A stretch of 26,610 nt of DNA, from the IMG/VR virus record IMGVR_UViG_3300047453_000062, positions 1-26,610 of that record, one strand, 5' to 3'. The DNA comes from a virus. The translations under genes and the position numbers were made by a program. The notes under the pieces were generated by a model that saw only the letters and a list, made by a program, of their open reading frames with translations, did no database searches and was not told the DNA's origin. The first letter of the stretch is position 1. Each line of letters opens with the position of its first letter. Shown in pieces: positions 3,627 through 22,234 of this stretch.

Positions 3627-3670
3627 TGGGCTATCGCCGCTAGGTGATATACAACTAAGGACCATGACCA

Positions 3671-4444
3671 ATGACCTACCAAGAACAATTATTAGTAATA
3701 AATTCTATACCTATAAAAGAAGGCGAGAGAAAGATAATGACTTGCCCTTCTTGTGGTGGGTATAAGAAGTTTTCTCTTAAAAAAGAAGATGGCTCACTGT
3801 TATGGAACTGCTTCAGGGCATCATGCAATGTGAGGGGAATATCTAGAGGTAGGGTTCCTATAGATAAAGCTAAGTTAAAGTTTATAAAGTCAGCATCTTC
3901 TACATCATGCGAAGTAAAAGGAAAACCTCTACCAGAGATTACTACTTCAGTAGAGAACTATGATCCTGCGATTGATTACCTTAGATCTGTAAATAGTTTA
4001 GAGGCTTATGAGAATAGCCTTATAGATATTAAATACAGTCCATCAGATGAAAGAGTAATATTCTATGGTAGTAATGGCGCTGTAGGACGTACTCTAAAGT
4101 CTTATGGACCTAAGTGGGTAACCTACGGGGATGTATCAGATGGAATATCTGTAGGTAGTGGAGATACTGCCATCTTAGTAGAAGATACTCCGTCTGCTTG
4201 TTCTGTTAGTAGAATAGCTAATACAGTGGGCATATCAATGTGCGGAACCACTCTTACTAATAATCTTAATATCAAGCTTAGTCAGTATGCAAATGTATAC
4301 CTAGTGCTTGATAGAGATGCTTCTAATAAATCTATTAAGATAGTTAAGAACCAGAACAGAAATATTAAAATGCGTATACCATCTAACGATCTAAAGTATC
4401 TGAGCCAAGATCAAATTAAGGGGCTTTTATTTTTAGATCAATAA
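3671..4444 (+). CDS. Zinc-binding TOPRIM primase, 257 aa
   Basis: An N-terminal zinc-binding domain has four cysteines: C25 and C28 (CPSC), then C47 and C52. After a linker comes a TOPRIM-like catalytic fold with the acidic residue E171 (in LVEDTPSA) and the DxD pair D214/D216 (in VLDRDASN). This matches the primase half of T7 gp4 and related phage primases, which make short RNA primers for lagging-strand synthesis. Here it stands alone, with the helicase as the next gene, instead of being fused as in T7. The ATG at 3671 follows AAGGA by nine bases. Another ATG at 3664 is in a different frame. About 42 bases separate it from the helicase. Confidence 0.9.
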   Translation: MTYQEQLLVINSIPIKEGERKIMTCPSCGGYKKFSLKKEDGSLLWNCFRASCNVRGISRGRVPIDKAKLKFIKSASSTSCEVKGKPLPEITTSVENYDPAIDYLRSVNSLEAYENSLIDIKYSPSDERVIFYGSNGAVGRTLKSYGPKWVTYGDVSDGISVGSGDTAILVEDTPSACSVSRIANTVGISMCGTTLTNNLNIKLSQYANVYLVLDRDASNKSIKIVKNQNRNIKMRIPSNDLKYLSQDQIKGLLFLDQ

Positions 4445-4486
4445 TGTTACAATCGAAACCTAGCTGAGTAATATAAGGACCAATAC

Positions 4487-5701
4487 ATGAACCACTCACT
4501 TCTGAAGAACTGTTTGAGAAATTTGTTCTTCGAAGAAAACAAAGGGAAGCTTAGACCTTCTCTCTTCGAAGAAGAAACTAGAGAAATATATAACTGTATA
4601 TCTGAATGCCATGATAAGTTTGGTAAAGATATTACACCTCTAGAACTCTTCTCCTACTGGAAATCCAAAAATCCTACATCTACACAGGCATGGGACAATT
4701 CTATTGAAGACATAATCAATAGTATTGGCAATGCTGAACCTATAGATGATGAAATATCTACAACAGTAATCGAACGTCTGTATCAGCAAGACATTGGTGC
4801 AGAGATAGTTAACTATGGCATAATGATTAACGAAGGTAAAATTACGGCTATGGATAGCCTAAAGCAATTACTTCAGAAATGTCAGGGTGACTTCACAACT
4901 AATGAGTTTGGAGAGAAGGTAACTGACAATATCTACGAACTACTAGCAGTAGTGTCAGATGATAACCGTTTTCAATTTAACATCCCCACCTTGAGCCGTG
5001 AAGTATATGGTATTGGTAGAGGGGAGTTTGGTGTTATAGCTGCCTATTCTAATGTAGGTAAAACTGCATTTGCAATCAGCCTCTGTGCAGCCCCTTCAGG
5101 TTTCTGCCAACAAGGTGCTAAAGTTGTTTATATAGCTAATGAGGAGATTGGTAAGCGTACCAAGCTTAGAGCCATACAATCCTACACGGGAATGACTAGG
5201 GATGAAATCTCTGAGACACCTGAAGATGCAGCCGCCAGATACTCAGGGATTAAAGATAGGCTAATATTTCAAGATGCCCAAGGTTGGGACATTACCACAC
5301 TTGAGGCTTACTTAGCCCAAGAGAAAGCTGACGTAGTAATAGTAGATATGGCTGACAAGATAGCCTTGACTGAGAAGTTTAACTCAGGACATGAACGTCT
5401 TAGGGAGTTATACTACCGTCTGCGTGAAGCAGCAAAGACATATGACTGTGCGGTCCTTGGTTTATCTCAGGCTAGTGCAGAGGCTGAAGGCAAGACCCGT
5501 ATTACCATGTCTATGATGGAAGGATCAAAATTAGGTAAGGCCGCAGAATCCGATATTATGTTAGGGCTTGGCAAAATGGACAGCCCAGATGATCCAGATG
5601 ATAGCACTAGATGGATTACTGTGATGAAGAATAAGATCAGTGGTTGGCATGGTACAGTGATGGTCAATCTAGATGTAGATAGGAATAGATATGTGGCTTG
5701 A
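4487..5701 (+). CDS. DnaB/gp4-like replicative DNA helicase, 404 aa
   Basis: A RecA-like ATPase fills the C-terminal two-thirds. The Walker A loop is AYSNVGKTA (about residues 186-194, Lys192), a catalytic Glu lies in YIANEE (219-220), Walker B is VVIVDMAD (283-290) and the polar sensor segment is GLSQAS (about 325-330). The N-terminal 150 residues are helical, like the collar or primase-binding part of DnaB. It should form a hexameric ring that unwinds the fork, working with the separate primase upstream and the polymerase downstream. An AAGGA at 4475-4479, seven bases before the ATG, marks the start. Its 3' end overlaps a tiny membrane-protein gene by 11 bases. Confidence 0.93.
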   Translation: MNHSLLKNCLRNLFFEENKGKLRPSLFEEETREIYNCISECHDKFGKDITPLELFSYWKSKNPTSTQAWDNSIEDIINSIGNAEPIDDEISTTVIERLYQQDIGAEIVNYGIMINEGKITAMDSLKQLLQKCQGDFTTNEFGEKVTDNIYELLAVVSDDNRFQFNIPTLSREVYGIGRGEFGVIAAYSNVGKTAFAISLCAAPSGFCQQGAKVVYIANEEIGKRTKLRAIQSYTGMTRDEISETPEDAAARYSGIKDRLIFQDAQGWDITTLEAYLAQEKADVVIVDMADKIALTEKFNSGHERLRELYYRLREAAKTYDCAVLGLSQASAEAEGKTRITMSMMEGSKLGKAAESDIMLGLGKMDSPDDPDDSTRWITVMKNKISGWHGTVMVNLDVDRNRYVA

Positions 5702-10940: not shown

Positions 10941-12935
10941 ATGATATCTAAAGACGATATTGAAGCAATGGCCTACACCAATGCTCAGAGAGAGTATTTC
11001 GGTCTAGGCCCCTTACCTAATGAGAAAAAGATGAACAACTACTTACCAACTGACTACCAAACCTTTATAGCCACTTCTCGCTATGCAAGGTGGCTTGATG
11101 AAGAGAAGCGCAGAGAGACTTGGGGCGAAACCGTAGAGAGGTACATGGACAATGTAGTTCGTCCTCTAATTGGTAATGACTCCTATGTAGATGAAATACG
11201 GGATGGTATTCTTAGTCTTAACATAATGCCATCTATGAGATCTCTTATGACTGCAGGACCTGCGGCTGAGAGAGACAATACCTGTATGTATAATTGTTCT
11301 TACCTACCAGTAGATGATCCTAAGTCTTTTGATGAAGCTATGTATATACTTCTCAACGGAACAGGCGTAGGGTTTAGTGTAGAGAGGCAGTATATATCTA
11401 AGCTACCAGAAGTCCCTGAGAACCTTTTTAGTTCAGATACCACAGTGGTTATACAGGATAGTAAACGTGGGTGGGCTAAAGGCTTCCGACAAGTTCTAGC
11501 GTTGCTATGGGCAGGAGAAATCCCACAGTGGGATGTATCTAAAGTACGACCTGCAGGAGCTAGGCTGAAGACCTTTGGTGGTAGAGCCAGTGGCCCTGCC
11601 CCACTAGTAGATCTGTTTAACTTCTGTATTTCTACTTTTAAGAATGCTCAAGGGCGAAAGCTATACTCTATGGAATGCCATGATATTATGTGCAAGATAG
11701 GGGAAGTTATTGTTATGGGTGGGGTAAGGCGATCAGCTATGATATCCCTATCTAATCTGTCAGATGATAGAATGCGTCATGCTAAGTCAGGCAAGTGGTG
11801 GGAGAATGCTCCACACAGAGCCTTGGCTAACAACAGCGTGGTCTACACAGAAACTCCTGATGCACTGTCGTTTATACGGGAGTGGACTTCCTTAGTAGAG
11901 AGTGGAAGTGGTGAGCGTGGTATATTCAACAGAGAAGCCTGTAAACGTATTGCAGAGCAAAGTGGTAGAAGAGATGCCGACCAAGACTTCGGTTGCAACC
12001 CGTGCTCTGAGATCAGCTTGAGGCCCATGCAGTTCTGTAATTTATCTGAAGTAGTTGTTAGGGCTACGGATGATATTGCTGCTATAGAGAAGAAAGTTAG
12101 ACTAGCTACTATACTAGGCACTATTCAATCTACCTTTACTTACTTCCCTTACTTAAGAAAAGTGTGGAAGGATAACACAGAGGAAGAGCGTCTACTTGGA
12201 GTAAGCCTTACAGGTATTATGGATAACCCACTTATGACTGTTAAGAATGAGGCATTAAATGAAACTCTGGAACATCTCAAGCAGTTAGCTATTAAAACAA
12301 ACAAGGAGTGGTCAGAGAGGCTAAAGATACCTGCCAGTACTGCCATAACTTGTGTTAAGCCCTCTGGTACTGTTTCTCAGTTAGTTGATAGTGCCAGTGG
12401 ACTACACCCACGATACTCCCCCTACTATATAAGAACAGTTAGAGGAGATAACAAAGACCCTCTCACACAGTTTATGGTGGATCAGGGGATACCTAGTGAA
12501 CCTGATTTTATGAAGCCAGATCACACAACTGTATTTAGTTTTCCTATGAGAGCGCCAGAGGGGGCTAAGTGTACTAAGGACTTCTCAGCCATACAACAGC
12601 TAGAGACTTGGCTAATTTATCAGAGACACTGGTGTGAACATAAACCTAGTGTTACTATTAACGTAAAACCTGAAGAGTGGTTAGAGGTAGGCTCCTTTGT
12701 ATTAAAACACTTTGATGAAATGTCTGGTGTTAGCTTCTTACCTTTTGAAGAACATACATATCAACAGGCTCCCTACCAGAATGTAAGTAGAGAAGACTAT
12801 GACACTCTTCTAAAGTCCATGCCTAAAGACATTAACTGGGATGAGCTAGACCTCTATGAGCAAGAGGATAACACTTCAGGTTCTAGGACAATGGCGTGTT
12901 CTGGGGATGTCTGTGAAATGGTAGATATTACCTAA
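10941..12935 (+). CDS. Class II (B12-dependent) ribonucleotide reductase, 664 aa
   Basis: This enzyme reduces ribonucleotides to deoxyribonucleotides with adenosylcobalamin, feeding phage DNA synthesis. The active-site finger loop is GCNPCSEI, giving N353, thiyl-forming C355 and E357. C119 (MYNCSY) and C366 (QFCNLSE) form the redox pair, and C653 and C658 (ACSGDVC) near the C-terminus are the shuttle pair. This matches the monomeric Lactobacillus leichmannii/cyanophage type, which needs no small subunit, and none is encoded nearby. At 664 aa it is somewhat shorter than the bacterial enzyme of about 740 aa. No clear Shine-Dalgarno sequence precedes the ATG; the leader is AT-rich. It is the last plus-strand gene. 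Use of this enzyme implies a host that makes or imports cobalamin. Confidence 0.93.
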   Translation: MISKDDIEAMAYTNAQREYFGLGPLPNEKKMNNYLPTDYQTFIATSRYARWLDEEKRRETWGETVERYMDNVVRPLIGNDSYVDEIRDGILSLNIMPSMRSLMTAGPAAERDNTCMYNCSYLPVDDPKSFDEAMYILLNGTGVGFSVERQYISKLPEVPENLFSSDTTVVIQDSKRGWAKGFRQVLALLWAGEIPQWDVSKVRPAGARLKTFGGRASGPAPLVDLFNFCISTFKNAQGRKLYSMECHDIMCKIGEVIVMGGVRRSAMISLSNLSDDRMRHAKSGKWWENAPHRALANNSVVYTETPDALSFIREWTSLVESGSGERGIFNREACKRIAEQSGRRDADQDFGCNPCSEISLRPMQFCNLSEVVVRATDDIAAIEKKVRLATILGTIQSTFTYFPYLRKVWKDNTEEERLLGVSLTGIMDNPLMTVKNEALNETLEHLKQLAIKTNKEWSERLKIPASTAITCVKPSGTVSQLVDSASGLHPRYSPYYIRTVRGDNKDPLTQFMVDQGIPSEPDFMKPDHTTVFSFPMRAPEGAKCTKDFSAIQQLETWLIYQRHWCEHKPSVTINVKPEEWLEVGSFVLKHFDEMSGVSFLPFEEHTYQQAPYQNVSREDYDTLLKSMPKDINWDELDLYEQEDNTSGSRTMACSGDVCEMVDIT

Positions 12936-12950
12936 GTTTTTAAAGAAAAA

Positions 12951-12976
12951 CCCCCACTATCGGTTGACGGTGGGGG
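12951..12976 (-). terminator. Terminator for the minus-strand late transcript
   Basis: CCCCCAC (12951-12957) pairs with GTGGGGG (12970-12976), and an inner CG/CG pair closes a five-base loop. Read on the minus strand, the hairpin is followed by TTTTTCTTTAAAA, a good intrinsic terminator tail. It lies 16 bases after the RNR stop codon on the far side of the intergenic region, so late transcripts would run through the whole gap before ending. Confidence 0.75.
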
Positions 12977-13066
12977 CAGTCTACTATATATTGTTTGCAT
13001 GAGGTTTGGTCACCTCGTCACAACCTCAAACACGGGTATGGGGAAGTGGCACTTAGTTGGTTGAAG
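12977..13066. other. Structured spacer between convergent terminators
   Basis: No reading frame was found. The stretch contains an exact 7-bp hairpin, TGAGGTT (13000-13006) with AACCTCA (13022-13028), whose loop contains the self-complementary GGTCACC. It also contains a compact hairpin AAGT-GGC-ACTT (13044-13054). Both terminators flank it, so it is transcribed in both directions as part of the 3' ends of the two convergent transcripts. It could be only a spacer, an RNA stability element or a small RNA. Confidence 0.45.
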
Positions 13067-13110
13067 CCCCCACACTGTTTTATGCTTGAGGCAATGTGGG
13101 GGTTTTATTT
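13067..13110 (+). terminator. Terminator for the plus-strand replication transcript
   Basis: CCCCCACA (13067-13074) pairs exactly with TGTGGGGG (13095-13102), followed by TTTTATTT. This is a typical intrinsic terminator for transcripts coming from the RNR gene. The stem repeats the same CCCCCAC/GTGGGGG sequence as the hairpin at 12951-12976. Its tail slightly overlaps the 3' end of the convergent minus-strand gene. Confidence 0.85.
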
Positions 13111-16100
13111 ATTTAGCCCCAAATATTGCACCTATACCCTCTGATAGGTCCCTACCTACAAATTGTTGGATAAAACCAATTTCTTCATCAGTAGGCTCTT
13201 CTTCTCTTATAAATATGTTGTACTTACCGCCTTGGTATGCCGCATTAACTGTCTGTCTAGCTGCCCCTTTAATAGCCTGAATATTCTGATTTTTTCTAAG
13301 TCTGTCTATTAAGGTAGCAAACTCTTCTGGTTGGGCTAATATTACTGCTAAAGCATCTGCAGCTACTTCTTTCTCTAACTCAGCTAACTCTTTTAGAGGG
13401 ATAGAACTTAGCCTACGGAGAAATGCTGCAGTCGGGTTCATGTATCCTGCTACAAGAAGAATACCTGTAGATACAGCGTCTGAAGTTCTTCTAGCCTGAT
13501 CTGTTAACAGTGACGTATTTGATCCTACAGACACACCTCTAGAAAAAGTCCCCATAGATTGTCTCTGTAAAATGGCTAGTGTTCTAACTACCCCTTCTCT
13601 TACATCCTCAAGACCTGACTGTCCATCAAAGATTAAATCTAAGCTAGTTAGAAGACCTGTAGCCTCTTCATTACTGAGCTTTGCTAACTGTCCTTGGTTT
13701 ACCCTAGATATGGGTTTCATATTTTGAGTACCAATGGTACTGGCTCCAAATATTCTACCCCCTATTAAATCTAATGCTTCAGCCTGTAAAACTTGTTTTG
13801 CTAACAACTTTTCAGCTTCAGTAGGAAGTTTATCTATTTCAGCAAGAAGTTGCTTAGTATTATTAGTATCTGTATTTATCAAAATACTCTGTAAATTTAT
13901 TGAAGTAGCAGGTCCTTCCGTTGCCATCTCTAAGTTGTCACTATCTTTAAATTTAGACAGAAGTGATTGTATTACACTATTTTTCTTTGCCTCTATTGCA
14001 TCGTTGGCGGCATTTAACTCATCTGTTAGACTAAGATTTAAGTCTCCTAGCTCAACAGTTTTATTTTCTATTCTGGTTATCAAGGCCTGTAATTGATCTG
14101 CAGCATCATTACTTCCAGAGGCCCGTAAGTTAGCTATAGGCTCTTGCAAGACTTGTCTAATCTGTAGTGGGGTAAGTCCCTGATCTACAAATGGAGACAG
14201 ACTGTTTACGACATCTTTAATAATCTTTGTTCTAAATAAAAGAGAAGTTTCGGTTGCCCCATCTATGGCAGAATCCCCTACCGCTTCAGATAGCTCTCTC
14301 TGAAGAGTACCACTTTTAAATGAAGCTCCTAGAGCCGTGTCGATAGCATTTGATAAAGCTACTTCTACATCTGCAGTACCTAGATCAGCCGCTTTGACGG
14401 TGGATGGAGCAAAAGCTAATTTCTTTGCCAATCTATCCTCTAAAGCTTTTGTTACAGGCTTAATAAATTCTGAGTCACGGAACCTGTTATCAAAATCTTG
14501 CCATAGCTGTTGTGCTTTTATTGCAGCCTCTGCAGTTGCTGAATTTTCTGACAACATGGCATAGCCTATCTGTCCTACTGCCTCTCCCTTTTCGTTTACA
14601 TTGCCATTAAGATGTTTACCTAATTCAATAAGAATTGCTCGTTCATCTTCAGGACCAGTATTTTTTAGACGGGCAATTACTGGTTTTAAAGTCCATAGAT
14701 CAGCAAAACCTAGTTGAGAAACTCTATCTGTAATTTCTTTAAACGTGGCTTCTTGTTCAAACACAAGTCCAGTATTTTCTGTACCACCAATAGGCTGTGG
14801 ACTTAATTTGTTAAATATTCCTATTAGTTTTGATTTTACCGCTTGTTTAGCCCGATTAGTGTTTACCACTTTGTCTGCAGGAAGGCTATTTTCAACAGCA
14901 TCTTTAAAAATTTTCATAAGAGCTTCTGCAGCGTCCTGACCAATTGGTGTATTTGGTACTGCGTCAAAAGCATTTTGATAGGCCTGTTTAGCCTTTACAA
15001 ACTCAGGGAATAAAACATTGTTTGCAAACCTAGAGACTGTCTGATCTGTCATATCACCAAAAGGATATAACTCATCAACAACTGTTAGGTATTCTTCGCT
15101 ATCTTGTAATATATTTTGTTTAGCTAGTTTTACCTCGTCTATCTCAATTTGTTTTATATTTGCTTTCTCTAGTAGTTTATCTACTTCTTCTTTATACCCT
15201 ACAACTAGTCTGTCTGTTAGAACTTGAGAAGCCTCTTTAGTCTGTATTTGGTCTGCAGCTTGTTTAAAGGCTTCTCCCGTTTGCATAATAACGGCATCAT
15301 CAAGTCCCGTCAGTCTAGGATCACCTGAGTTAGCCTTCATAAGAGCTACCATTCTAGCAAACATCTCATTAGCTTCTTTTTCTACATAGGCTTCCCATGC
15401 TTCTTCATCAAATACATTTCTGTTTCTGCCTTCTACTTTAGTAAAAGTATTTTTTAAGTTTTGGCGAGTTTCTCTAATGTAGGCTTCCGCACCAGAGGCT
15501 AGAGCTATAGTGGTAGTTACATCAATGTCTTTAGCAAAATTTCCTATGGTAATTGTTTCTACAGAATTAGCTCTAAGAACTTCTGATAATTTAATAAGTT
15601 TTCTGTTCTTAGCTTTTCCATTAGATTTTAATATTTCAGGATCAAGGAAATTAACTACGTTTAACACCTGCCCATCTTTAACAGACTTTACCATCTGTTG
15701 TGCGCTAAGTTTAGTTGTATCTCCTGCTTTCAACCCACCAAAATTTATTAAGGCAGGGGCTGCTACAGTTAGTAGTCCATCAAGCGCACCATTTAAAAGC
15801 AAACCTTCTAATAGTAACCCTACATCTCTAGAGGTAGAGGCTGACCAATCATATCCTGCAGCTTTTGCCCAATCTTGAATTTTATCATCTAGGAATATTC
15901 CTGATTGTCCTTCACTGGCTATGAGAGTGTCTGCTAAAGATGCCCCAATAACTGTACTACCAAATCTTCCTAGTCCACCTACCCTAGCTGATTTATCTAA
16001 TCTAGTAGCCATCTTGAGAAGATTTAGGCCACCTCTAGTAATAGTAGAAGAACCACCTGTTACTGGAGCCAGTGTAAGTACGTCTGCAAGTAATTGCTCA

Positions 16101-16876
16101 CCTGAAGTTAACTCCATAGTAGGATTGCTTTGAATAAAGTCTTTGTCTTCTTCTGCAGTTCCTAACTCAAACTTTCCTGTATCATCAGAAAAGTCAAGTT
16201 GCATAGCACCTGATAAATCTTTTCTAAAATCTAAAAACCCTTCTCTAAAAACTCTATTGAAAAAATCAGGTCCCATCTCTTCAGGTTTAGGCACAACTAC
16301 ATTTTCAACAAGGATCTTTCCAGTTTCAGGATCATTAGTCACCCTTTCATAGATACGTCTACCAGTAGGGTTTCCATCAACTATCTCAGGAGTACCGAAG
16401 TTATCATAAATCTCCTGTGCTTCCGTCATGTATTCTGCTACTTCAGCATCATAAGTTTCGGAATCTGCTTTTGCTCGTTGTACACTTAGATTCTCATTTG
16501 CAAGGTTTGAACCCTTATACTCATCAAATTTTTCAGTGGTAAATACAGTTAATCTGTCTATCCAGTTATTTGCTATCTCCTTGAATGTACCCCCCGGTTT
16601 TTCACCAAAGATAGCTTCTGGGGTTAGATCATCTCCACTTTGAACAGCTTCTTGTCGTTCCTGAGTAGTCTCATTAAACTCCACACGAGGAGTAGTAGGT
16701 AGACCTAAATCTTGAAGTACCTTATCTGCATCTTCTTCCTCTTGATTAATGGAGGGGCTAGTAACAGGATTAGCAATAGCTTCTAGTTCCTCTTGAGGAA
16801 TATTTTCATTATTCGCCCAAGGGTTATCTATGTACATTTGGGCCGTTTCAGGAGTTAGGCCATATTGATTTTCCAT
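13109..16876 (-). CDS. Very large internal virion/ejection-like protein, 1255 aa
   Basis: This is the longest gene in the window and the last of the late transcript. Most of the product is predicted helical from composition: long runs rich in Lys, Glu, Ala, Leu and Gln with coiled-coil character (for example around EKLLAKQVLQAEALD). A short region near residues 345-375 contains a hydrophobic patch (LLLEGLLLNGALDGLL). The N-terminal 60 residues are acidic (INQEEEDADKVLQDLG) and no signal peptide is present. Size, gene order and helical nature fit the large internal-core or ejection proteins of podoviruses (comparable in role to T7 gp15/gp16). No lysozyme or other enzyme motif was seen. AGGA lies six bases before the ATG. 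Confidence 0.7.
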   Translation of the reverse strand: MENQYGLTPETAQMYIDNPWANNENIPQEELEAIANPVTSPSINQEEEDADKVLQDLGLPTTPRVEFNETTQERQEAVQSGDDLTPEAIFGEKPGGTFKEIANNWIDRLTVFTTEKFDEYKGSNLANENLSVQRAKADSETYDAEVAEYMTEAQEIYDNFGTPEIVDGNPTGRRIYERVTNDPETGKILVENVVVPKPEEMGPDFFNRVFREGFLDFRKDLSGAMQLDFSDDTGKFELGTAEEDKDFIQSNPTMELTSGEQLLADVLTLAPVTGGSSTITRGGLNLLKMATRLDKSARVGGLGRFGSTVIGASLADTLIASEGQSGIFLDDKIQDWAKAAGYDWSASTSRDVGLLLEGLLLNGALDGLLTVAAPALINFGGLKAGDTTKLSAQQMVKSVKDGQVLNVVNFLDPEILKSNGKAKNRKLIKLSEVLRANSVETITIGNFAKDIDVTTTIALASGAEAYIRETRQNLKNTFTKVEGRNRNVFDEEAWEAYVEKEANEMFARMVALMKANSGDPRLTGLDDAVIMQTGEAFKQAADQIQTKEASQVLTDRLVVGYKEEVDKLLEKANIKQIEIDEVKLAKQNILQDSEEYLTVVDELYPFGDMTDQTVSRFANNVLFPEFVKAKQAYQNAFDAVPNTPIGQDAAEALMKIFKDAVENSLPADKVVNTNRAKQAVKSKLIGIFNKLSPQPIGGTENTGLVFEQEATFKEITDRVSQLGFADLWTLKPVIARLKNTGPEDERAILIELGKHLNGNVNEKGEAVGQIGYAMLSENSATAEAAIKAQQLWQDFDNRFRDSEFIKPVTKALEDRLAKKLAFAPSTVKAADLGTADVEVALSNAIDTALGASFKSGTLQRELSEAVGDSAIDGATETSLLFRTKIIKDVVNSLSPFVDQGLTPLQIRQVLQEPIANLRASGSNDAADQLQALITRIENKTVELGDLNLSLTDELNAANDAIEAKKNSVIQSLLSKFKDSDNLEMATEGPATSINLQSILINTDTNNTKQLLAEIDKLPTEAEKLLAKQVLQAEALDLIGGRIFGASTIGTQNMKPISRVNQGQLAKLSNEEATGLLTSLDLIFDGQSGLEDVREGVVRTLAILQRQSMGTFSRGVSVGSNTSLLTDQARRTSDAVSTGILLVAGYMNPTAAFLRRLSSIPLKELAELEKEVAADALAVILAQPEEFATLIDRLRKNQNIQAIKGAARQTVNAAYQGGKYNIFIREEEPTDEEIGFIQQFVGRDLSEGIGAIFGAK

Positions 16877-20081: not shown

Positions 20082-20256
20082 CTTGATCCAACTCTTTCTC
20101 TTCTACTTCTGCATCACTATTTAGGGCCTGTTGCAACCCATCAAAATATTCAGGCGTGTAATAGACTTCGCCATCCTTTATCTCTGAGGTTTTATTTAAC
20201 ATTTTCCCCTCTTTAAATTTCTTTATGGAGAGTAATACTGCTTCATCGAATTGCAT
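20059..20256 (-). CDS. Small hypothetical protein, 65 aa
   Basis: This short protein has a helical N-terminus (FDEAVLLSIKKFKEGKML) and an acidic C-terminus (AEVEEKELDQDGN). It overlaps the upstream gene by 14 bases and the downstream gene by 23 bases, both in other frames, which supports real coupled translation. No family was recognised. A minor virion or assembly role is possible from its place only. Confidence 0.7.
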   Translation of the reverse strand: MQFDEAVLLSIKKFKEGKMLNKTSEIKDGEVYYTPEYFDGLQQALNSDAEVEEKELDQDGNTTEV

Positions 20257-22234
20257 CTCTAACTACCTCATAGTTAACGTGAAGGTATCCATTCTTTTCA
20301 AATACAGCTTCAGGGTGAGTTTTATAAAGTTCTTGAGCCACAACTCCATACGAAGGTAATTTGTCTGCCCCATACTTTTTGGCCTCTTCTGACCAATCCC
20401 ATTTGTATAAACCTACACCATTTATGGTATTATACTTCTGGATATTATTTTTAAAACGTGCATCACTCATTCCTGTAATAAATTTAACTCCTGCTTCTGT
20501 ACTCAAGAAAGAACCTGCTAGAGAGAAAAGACCTCCTAGAAAACCACCACCTTTTTTCCTACCTGCTTGAGCCTGTATTTGAGCAATGGTTAAATCTTTA
20601 ATAGCCTCATTTTCGTTTTGAGAATACTTAAATACATAATCTAACAAGGAATCTACATGGTCCCATGTCCCTGTCATTTGCTCACTAGTTAGATCTAGGC
20701 CGTTTTTAACATCTGTAGTTGTAGCATCCCAATCAGTCTTAAATTGCTCTAGGGTAACATCCTGTCTCCATTTAGCATTAAACTGGGAGTAGTTATATTG
20801 AAGTTGGTCTAAAAATTGATCTCTGCTATTTCTTATATCCAAAACAAATTGGGCAGCATCGTTTATTTCTCCAGAATTGAACTTCTTGAGCGCATTTATC
20901 TCTGAGTTGTTCTGTAAGTCTATTTGGGCATTTAGGTTACCAAAGAACTTGGCAAAATCGTTTGCATTCTCTGCACCAAATATCCGTTGTGCATTCATAG
21001 CTGCAGTGTCAGTAAACAGAGCTTCTATCCTAGCCTGTTTATTTACAATCTCTGCCTGTTGAGTATTTGTTAAATTAGCTATATCTAGCTTCAAGAAGTT
21101 CTGAGCGTTTGTAACTAAGGCTGTCTGTCTAGCATTAAGATTAGAAGTCTCCATATTTGCTAATATAGTAGCTTTGTTAATGATAGATTTCTGTTTGTTG
21201 TCTAAATTAGTAGTAGTTAATGTTTGAAAGAATTTTGCATCTTTATCCGCAACCTGAATAACCGACTGCATCATGGCCTGTGCTATGGCAGCTTCGGCTG
21301 CAGCACCAGTGATGTTTAAGGCTCCTGCAGCACTTTTAACCATAGGCCTAGCCCACACAGGAGTTACATATTGACCTTTATCATTTATAAATTGTCTAGA
21401 GATTATTTCTATCTGCCCTGCAGTAGTAGCTCTCTTATCTAAATAGTTACCTTCTCCTAGCTGTCGGGCTAATTCTCTACCTGAAGGAGTAGTAGTGTCA
21501 ATAATGTTAGTGAAATCTATTGAAGCCCAATCATTAACGGCTCTACCTACTGCATTCTCTCCTGCAGCAACCGCTTCTATATCTATCTGTATTTCATTTG
21601 GATTTACTAATCCTTCCTTACTCATGGTTTTTGTAGCAGCATCTACCATCATATCATCAGTAAGGGAGCTAGTATTAGATTTTACAGAATAGTCTGTAAC
21701 TTCAACTTTATCTATTTGATCTGCTAATGCGGTTTTATCTACTGTAGATACATCAAGGTCTACTGGATCATCACTTCTAGCCTCACCCATATCAATTGCT
21801 GTACCTTCAGCATCTGCATCAAGTGTAGGAACAGCATCTTCTAAAGTGAACCCTTTGCTTTCCATCCACTTCTTAGGGTCTGCTAATATAGCATCTCTAT
21901 CTTCCTGTGCTTTAAGACTTCCTGTCTTTTCGGCCCACTCTAAGACTTGCTCTACAATATCGACTTCTGGTACTTCGGATACATCTATACCTGTCTCTTC
22001 TGTGACGGCCCCAGATCCAGAACCTCCCCCCGTTGTAATTTCTGGGGGTTCAGCATTTCCATCGATTACTCCATCGTTTCCAACAACAGCATCACTATCA
22101 TCTACAGCTTGTCCTGTTGTGGTACTTACTAGAGTACCCCCCTGATATTCTGTATCATCATCAGTTGTAGTAACATTAGCTATCGACTGTTGTAGAGAAT
22201 TTCCTCCACCAAATGTGCTTGACCATAATCCCAT
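20243..22234 (-). CDS. Virion protein with C-terminal S74-like domain, 663 aa
   Basis: The first 170 residues are low-complexity, acidic and Thr/Gly/Asp-rich (for example TTGGGSGSGAVTEE). Residues about 280-560 are Asn/Gln/Ala-rich and helical. A Gly-rich hydrophobic hinge follows (KKGGGFLGGLFSLAG), and the end is a domain starting SDARFKNNI at S590, with GLYKWDW and YGVVAQEL. This end matches the peptidase S74/intramolecular chaperone type, whose catalytic Ser lies in SD-x-R-x-K. Only 74 residues are present, shorter than the endosialidase-type chaperone, as in many podovirus structural proteins. Self-cleavage is possible but uncertain. Alternatives are a tail fibre or an internal virion protein; the Gln/Asn-rich body favours the latter. 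The start overlaps the o-spanin stop (TAATG). Confidence 0.72.
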   Translation of the reverse strand: MGLWSSTFGGGNSLQQSIANVTTTDDDTEYQGGTLVSTTTGQAVDDSDAVVGNDGVIDGNAEPPEITTGGGSGSGAVTEETGIDVSEVPEVDIVEQVLEWAEKTGSLKAQEDRDAILADPKKWMESKGFTLEDAVPTLDADAEGTAIDMGEARSDDPVDLDVSTVDKTALADQIDKVEVTDYSVKSNTSSLTDDMMVDAATKTMSKEGLVNPNEIQIDIEAVAAGENAVGRAVNDWASIDFTNIIDTTTPSGRELARQLGEGNYLDKRATTAGQIEIISRQFINDKGQYVTPVWARPMVKSAAGALNITGAAAEAAIAQAMMQSVIQVADKDAKFFQTLTTTNLDNKQKSIINKATILANMETSNLNARQTALVTNAQNFLKLDIANLTNTQQAEIVNKQARIEALFTDTAAMNAQRIFGAENANDFAKFFGNLNAQIDLQNNSEINALKKFNSGEINDAAQFVLDIRNSRDQFLDQLQYNYSQFNAKWRQDVTLEQFKTDWDATTTDVKNGLDLTSEQMTGTWDHVDSLLDYVFKYSQNENEAIKDLTIAQIQAQAGRKKGGGFLGGLFSLAGSFLSTEAGVKFITGMSDARFKNNIQKYNTINGVGLYKWDWSEEAKKYGADKLPSYGVVAQELYKTHPEAVFEKNGYLHVNYEVVRDAIR

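Follow-up and report, generated by a model that had tools for sequence, protein, structure and literature searches.

OppZ and CarZ of Vibrio cholerae are autoregulatory small RNAs (sRNAs) derived from 3'UTRs, and RNase E processing and Hfq dependence define them (PMC7398697). Among phages, PreS of phage lambda is an sRNA of ~90 nt that acts in trans and regulates the host replication gene dnaN, and the small antisense RNAs OOP and aQ of lambda and sar of P22 face a neighbouring transcript and lower the expression of a phage gene (PMC12197685). In this study, we describe a predicted sRNA gene with its own promoter and intrinsic terminator, located in the intergenic region where the early and late operons converge in a virus record of 26,610 bases (the whole stretch analysed, hereafter the window). 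By gene order the window is an HMO-2011-type phage, and phages of this type have been described as ocean-dominant and broadly distributed (PMC9038755).

Like OppZ and CarZ, the predicted sRNA lies at the 3' end of an operon, is ended by the operon terminator and is predicted to pair with start regions of its own operon, limiting translation; it differs from them in having its own promoter inside the opposing terminator, in its phage location and in its connection with replication genes. The conserved promoter speaks for primary transcription of the predicted sRNA. With PreS it would share a phage origin, a similar size, action in trans and a link to DNA replication, whereas it is predicted to target helicase and primase of its own phage instead of a host gene. 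Like OOP, aQ and sar, it would be a small phage RNA that faces a neighbouring transcript and lowers the expression of a phage gene. In contrast to them, perfect antisense overlap exists only with the 3'UTR of the late mRNA, and the predicted targets are ~9 kb away and would be reached through short seeds.

In a covariance-model search, no Rfam 15 family matched at the gathering score. In the bacterial genomes sampled, no homologue was found: an exact-pattern scan of 84,980 genomes gave six hits that we judged to be chance, and a covariance search in a single phylum, with 398 genomes, gave one terminator match, also judged to be chance. The paper on HMO-2011-type genomes (PMC9038755) and that on RCA phages (PMC6918029) make no mention of small RNA, noncoding, promoter or terminator, and the main text of a 2025 review of phage sRNAs lacks the word helicase (PMC12197685). 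None of the catalogues searched here, which for papers means the open-access literature, describes such a built-in replication brake.

Anatomy of the early/late junction

The early genes on the + strand end in ribonucleotide reductase (RNR) and converge on the leftward late genes (Table 1). Primase, helicase and RNR are all read in the same direction; the predicted sRNA comes after the last gene of this block and uses its terminator. A late protein of the window matches the Roseobacter phages CRP-738, CRP-235 and CRP-3 at 38-46% identity. The 1255-aa late protein had no match in phages by tblastn, and blastn of the junction region against phages returned nothing useful. A Peptidase_S74 (endosialidase chaperone) domain was observed at the C-terminus of a late protein, at 20243-22234 on the - strand.

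Table 1. Coordinates of genes and predicted elements in the window
Feature	Position	Strand	Basis or remark
Gene at the primase position, 257 aa	3671-4444	+	similarity to annotated primases of CRP phages
Predicted primase start-region target	3652-3671	+	CAACTAAG (3652-3659) pairs with linker; TGACCAA (3665-3671) pairs with loop and overlaps ATG
DnaB-like replicative helicase; main predicted target in relatives	4487-5701	+	Pfam DnaB_C 5e-11; annotated as a DNA helicase in the CRP phages
Weak loop complement GACCAA at -9 of helicase start	4478-4483	+	just 6 nt and not significant; most relatives have 8-11 nt
RNR, last gene of rightward early/replication operon	10941-12935	+	phrog_367, E 5.7e-180
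Leftward intrinsic terminator of late operon; hairpin also holds -35 box of sRNA promoter	12942-12976	-	hairpin and TTTTTCTTT on - strand; same layout in relatives
Predicted sigma-70-type promoter of sRNA: TTGACG (12964-12969), 17 bp, TATATT (12987-12992)	12964-12992	+	10/12 matches
Predicted sRNA, about 108 nt (70-80 nt in most relatives)	12999-13107	+	start inferred from -10 box
Conserved hairpin GAGGU-UUGGUC-ACCUC, loop = first seed	13001-13016	+	pair probabilities 0.89-1.0; stem covaries in relatives
Extra hairpin of window subtype only	13017-13050	+	also in L165 and L311; absent from L298
Unpaired linker CTTAGTTGGTTG, second seed	13052-13063	+	relatives and target ranking
Rightward intrinsic terminator, closing both sRNA and early operon	13064-13107	+	hairpin and TTTTATTTATTT; pair probability 1.0
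1255-aa late protein, last gene of leftward operon	13109-16876	-	

An earlier note on this DNA had pointed to two hairpins with an identical 7-bp stem, and both are present as claimed, with their T-runs facing the proposed directions. The left hairpin pairs CCCCCAC (12951-12957) with GTGGGGG (12970-12976) and is followed by TTTTTCTTT on the - strand; the right one pairs the same arms at 13067-13073 and 13096-13102 and is followed by TTTTATTTATTT on the + strand. Positions and T-runs also bear out that each terminator is distal to its own gene, leaving the transcripts to overlap in antisense: measured from the T-run ends, the early and late mRNAs overlap by ~160 nt, each terminator being placed beyond the other. 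A simple terminator scan with a loop limit of 3-8 nt detected neither hairpin. The region folded better than its dinucleotide shuffles on both strands (z of -4.25 and -4.99, 0/200).

Convergent operons often end in overlapping transcripts, and the junction might consist of a pair of terminators and nothing else, without an independent RNA; any regulation would then come at most from the converging transcription or from the antisense 3' ends. In favour of this, the two terminators are real, and a single simple bidirectional terminator suffices in many other relatives. However, terminators alone need no conserved promoter, loop, linker or covarying extra hairpin, and we consider this explanation quite improbable.

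The middle stems proposed earlier, TGAGGTT/AACCTCA (13000-13028) and AAGT-GGC-ACTT (13044-13054), exist as sequence but are outcompeted, with a pair probability of 0 in the predicted sRNA. The favoured hairpins are GAGGU/ACCUC (13001-13016, 0.89-1.0) and GUCAC/GUGGC (13017-13050, 0.98-1.0). A close relative, L298, has nearly the promoter and left hairpin of the window and keeps GAGGU-UUGGUC-ACCUC, but it is without the insertion from which one half of the 13000-13028 stem comes.

It had further been proposed that the duplicated arms allow long-range alternative folding, and a switch between the two terminators could be imagined on this basis. The arms are identical in the window and the swapped fold costs only 2.7 kcal/mol (-63.4 vs -66.1). 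Against this, the swap is the disfavoured state, the identical arms are not conserved, and an RNA started at the sRNA promoter would lack the left arm. The terminator arms are unrelated in most relatives, in which the longest complement between left arm and right region is 4-6 nt (exceptions being the window with 11, CRP-212 with 10, L019 with 9 and L298 with 7). The competing helices showed no conservation by covariation, the switch was rejected as a candidate, and we give it hardly any credence.

Conservation and covariation among relatives

The junction gene is common to ~35 distinct relatives, including the cultured Roseobacter phages CRP-738, CRP-3, CRP-235 and CRP-212. Eight relatives were found without the motif, namely L013, L019, L049 and L083 through the RNR protein and the four CRP phages just named through protein similarity, and their promoters are unbiased evidence because none of them was found by motif search. 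Pattern scans enlarged the family to 35 distinct sequences in an automated table, two further rows of which are a different element. The shared layout begins with the leftward terminator, an A-tract and a hairpin with TTGAC[C/G] inside, so that the -35 box of the predicted promoter is embedded in the late-gene terminator. It continues, after 17-18 bp, with an A/T-rich -10 box and a hairpin carrying UUGGUC or a close variant in its loop, and closes with a linker (GUUGGUU in most) and the rightward terminator. L223 and L230 have a degenerate-looking leftward terminator and retain the promoter and RNA. The element is missing from HMO-2011, CRP-1, CRP-13 and many further relatives with RNR, which have one simple terminator.

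Covariation was evaluated in two alignments. MAFFT misaligned the hairpin among 22 diverse members, and the count was therefore made first for the 12 members that could be aligned and afterwards for an alignment guided by the model. The 5' hairpin was 100% paired across the 12 members. Over the whole structure, five pairs had changed on both sides, giving 15 doubly changed cells vs 4.4 in shuffled data (0/500), and slid controls paired in only 46-58%. In the model-guided alignment of 36 members, which was fitted to the structure and thus leans towards it, 98.4% of cells pair and double changes occur in 17 of 21 pairs; the window enters this alignment only by its linker and terminator part, its own hairpin being uncounted there. 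The stem takes the forms GAGGU/ACCUC, GAACAGAU/AUCUGUUC, GAACUGGU/AUCGGUUC, GAAAGGU/ACCUUUC, GGAAUGGU/ACCAUUC, GUUCAGU/ACUGAAU and AGUGUGGU/ACUGCACU. Compensatory changes, which the earlier note had proposed to look for, were present in the stems of the predicted sRNA; the identical arms and the 13000-13028 and AAGT/ACTT stems were not conserved or not favoured. Its suggestion of a structured small RNA at the junction gains support from these changes together with the conserved gene layout.

The same comparison bears on a possible short peptide product. The window (at 12999, with 21 codons), CRP-3, CRP-235 and L291 each have an ATG where the transcript is predicted to start, or close to that point. 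In other relatives, however, the start is TTG or absent, the frame of the loop changes, the lengths are not divisible by three and the stem shows covariation, all of which makes a coding function very improbable.

Some other elements resembled parts of this gene. Matches like the sRNA occur in L198 (10502-10573, -) and L088 (2745-2807, -) at 32.5 and 21.7 bits, amid other gene content. We do not claim L198 (E 9e-5) or L088 as members of the family, as these are unrelated phages that were fetched by the search motif and the matches may be chance. A second element was seen in L274 (2235, -), L289 (853, -) and L286 (near 4310, +), ~1.2 kb from the main sRNA and just upstream of an ORF. It consists of a promoter (TTGACT-17-TACTAT), a hairpin of the form GGGGA-UUGGUA/U-UCUU and a terminator. 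It may be a further sRNA or an attenuator, and the main sRNA of these phages lacks a clear helicase target. Rhizobium phage RHph_N3_13 (L266, 4460-4555) has at the same junction an unusually long terminator stem of ~17 bp with further pairs, and no sRNA.

Complementarity to helicase and primase start regions

Candidate targets were ranked among phage genes, the scope of the target search, by exact complementarity of each phage's own sRNA to every annotated start region (-40 to +22). RNAduplex ranking without accessibility gave noise; exact runs were scored in its place and compared with background sequence, swapped sRNAs and control genes. Mostly over 8-11 nt, the loop and linker complement the region around the start of helicase, primase or both in the same phage. 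Among 51-55 genes, helicase ranked first in three of the four annotated phages, with complements of 10 nt in CRP-738 (UGGACCAAUC), 11 nt in CRP-3 (CUAACUUGAAA) and UCUAACUAG plus GACCAA in CRP-212; in CRP-738 primase ranked second (CAACCAACG at -17). Further helicase complements were found in L221 (AUGGACCAAUC, 11 nt, at the AUG), L227 (ACCAAUCAUUA, 11), L254 (ACCAAUCAC, 9), L169 (ACCAACUA, 8), L308 (CUAACUUGAAG, 11) and L291 (UACCAACUAA, 10), the last also having one of 9 nt at primase (ACCAACUAA). One compensating base differs between CRP-3 and L308, in sRNA and target alike. In the window, primase ranked first of 31 start regions, with CAACUAAG at -19 and UGACCAA at -6, and the site reached a chained p of 0.006 against its own genome; this primase lead arose first from a motif search and was afterwards tested over all genes. 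Where two sites occur, their order is consistent with antiparallel pairing, the linker on the upstream site and the loop on the downstream one. Among phage start regions, no clear helicase or primase match was found for CRP-235, L294, L277/L289 and L223. The gene predicted to be targeted, helicase or primase, appears to differ among subtypes.

Several controls addressed chance complementarity. Against 62-nt windows of each phage's own sequence, helicase gave p of 0.0009-0.05 in 16 of 23 phages; with the same background the values were 0.12-0.91 in the window, L166, CRP-235, L294, L289, L277 and L223. The chained scores of 15 representatives gave a combined Fisher p of 1.7e-11 for helicase, and those of 13 gave 2.5e-4 for primase; shared ancestry makes both values too optimistic. 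The helicase start matched its own sRNA over 8.5 nt vs 6.7 nt for swapped sRNAs (p 5e-5), and the same test for primase alone was not significant (p 0.09). When only noncoding 5'UTRs were compared, with one phage per linker class, p was 2e-5 to 1e-3, and conserved helicase codons are therefore not the explanation. The control starts of DNA polymerase, RNR, exonuclease, orf8297 and the gene at the lysozyme position showed no effect (p 0.16-0.95). The helicase complementarity to the predicted seeds thus exceeds chance and co-varies from phage to phage.

These controls also bear on whether a real sRNA acts mainly on a host mRNA or on a host RNA-binding protein such as Hfq, the phage replication matches being a by-product. 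Action on host genes has been described for phage sRNAs such as PreS (PMC12197685), and the UUGGUC loop is conserved even in subtypes for which no phage target was found. However, the own-vs-swapped and control-gene tests single out helicase, and we regard a mainly host-directed role as unlikely.

Considering all the above results, we have proposed a plausible model in which an operon-end sRNA, encoded at the junction, represses the translation of replication genes; this is the best explanation in our view and a rather probable one. Transcription from the promoter would begin near 12999 and stop near 13107, at the rightward terminator, yielding an RNA that consists of a short hairpin presenting UUGGUC, an unpaired linker of the GUUGGUU type and the terminator hairpin. 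Loop and linker would pair antiparallel with the Shine-Dalgarno/start region, mainly of helicase in relatives and of primase in the window, and the occupied start sites would block ribosome binding and lower the amount of replication protein made. The sRNA gene closes the early operon to which the predicted targets belong, and mRNA of that operon, whether read through or processed, would therefore also carry the sRNA sequence; negative feedback on replication might result. Leftward late transcription passes over the sRNA promoter and might silence the sRNA, although this timing is conjectural. A regulatory link to replication, which the earlier note had sought in the overlap of the terminators, is accordingly retained as likely, by way of base-pairing in trans rather than of that overlap.

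The direction of the effect deserves separate comment, since an sRNA pairing with the same start regions might activate translation, for instance by opening an inhibitory structure. Some pairing sites are 15-24 nt upstream of the start codon, where activation is possible, but many cover the start codon or adjoin the Shine-Dalgarno sequence, and such pairing normally represses. We infer repression and hold activation to be fairly remote.

In a wider form of the repression model, which we advance tentatively and with somewhat less than even confidence, the sRNA with its promoter in the opposing terminator would co-evolve with the helicase and primase starts of its own phage and would serve as a self-limiting brake, shifting infection out of replication and into the late phase, in an abundant marine phage group. 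The -35 box within the opposing terminator is a compact arrangement and could tie late transcription to sRNA output. If the model is true, operon-end sRNA feedback would be extended to viruses, and post-transcriptional control of phage replication would become testable in cultured Roseobacter phages.

One further feature was observed upstream of the primase gene. In the integrase-bearing phages L314, L315, L316, L317 and L328-L333, a sequence similar to a tRNA 3' end (GGCTCCGGCGGT.GGGATCGAACC... or GGTTGCGGGAG..GGATTTGAACC...) lies ~180-210 nt upstream of the primase start, and it looks like a phage attachment site.
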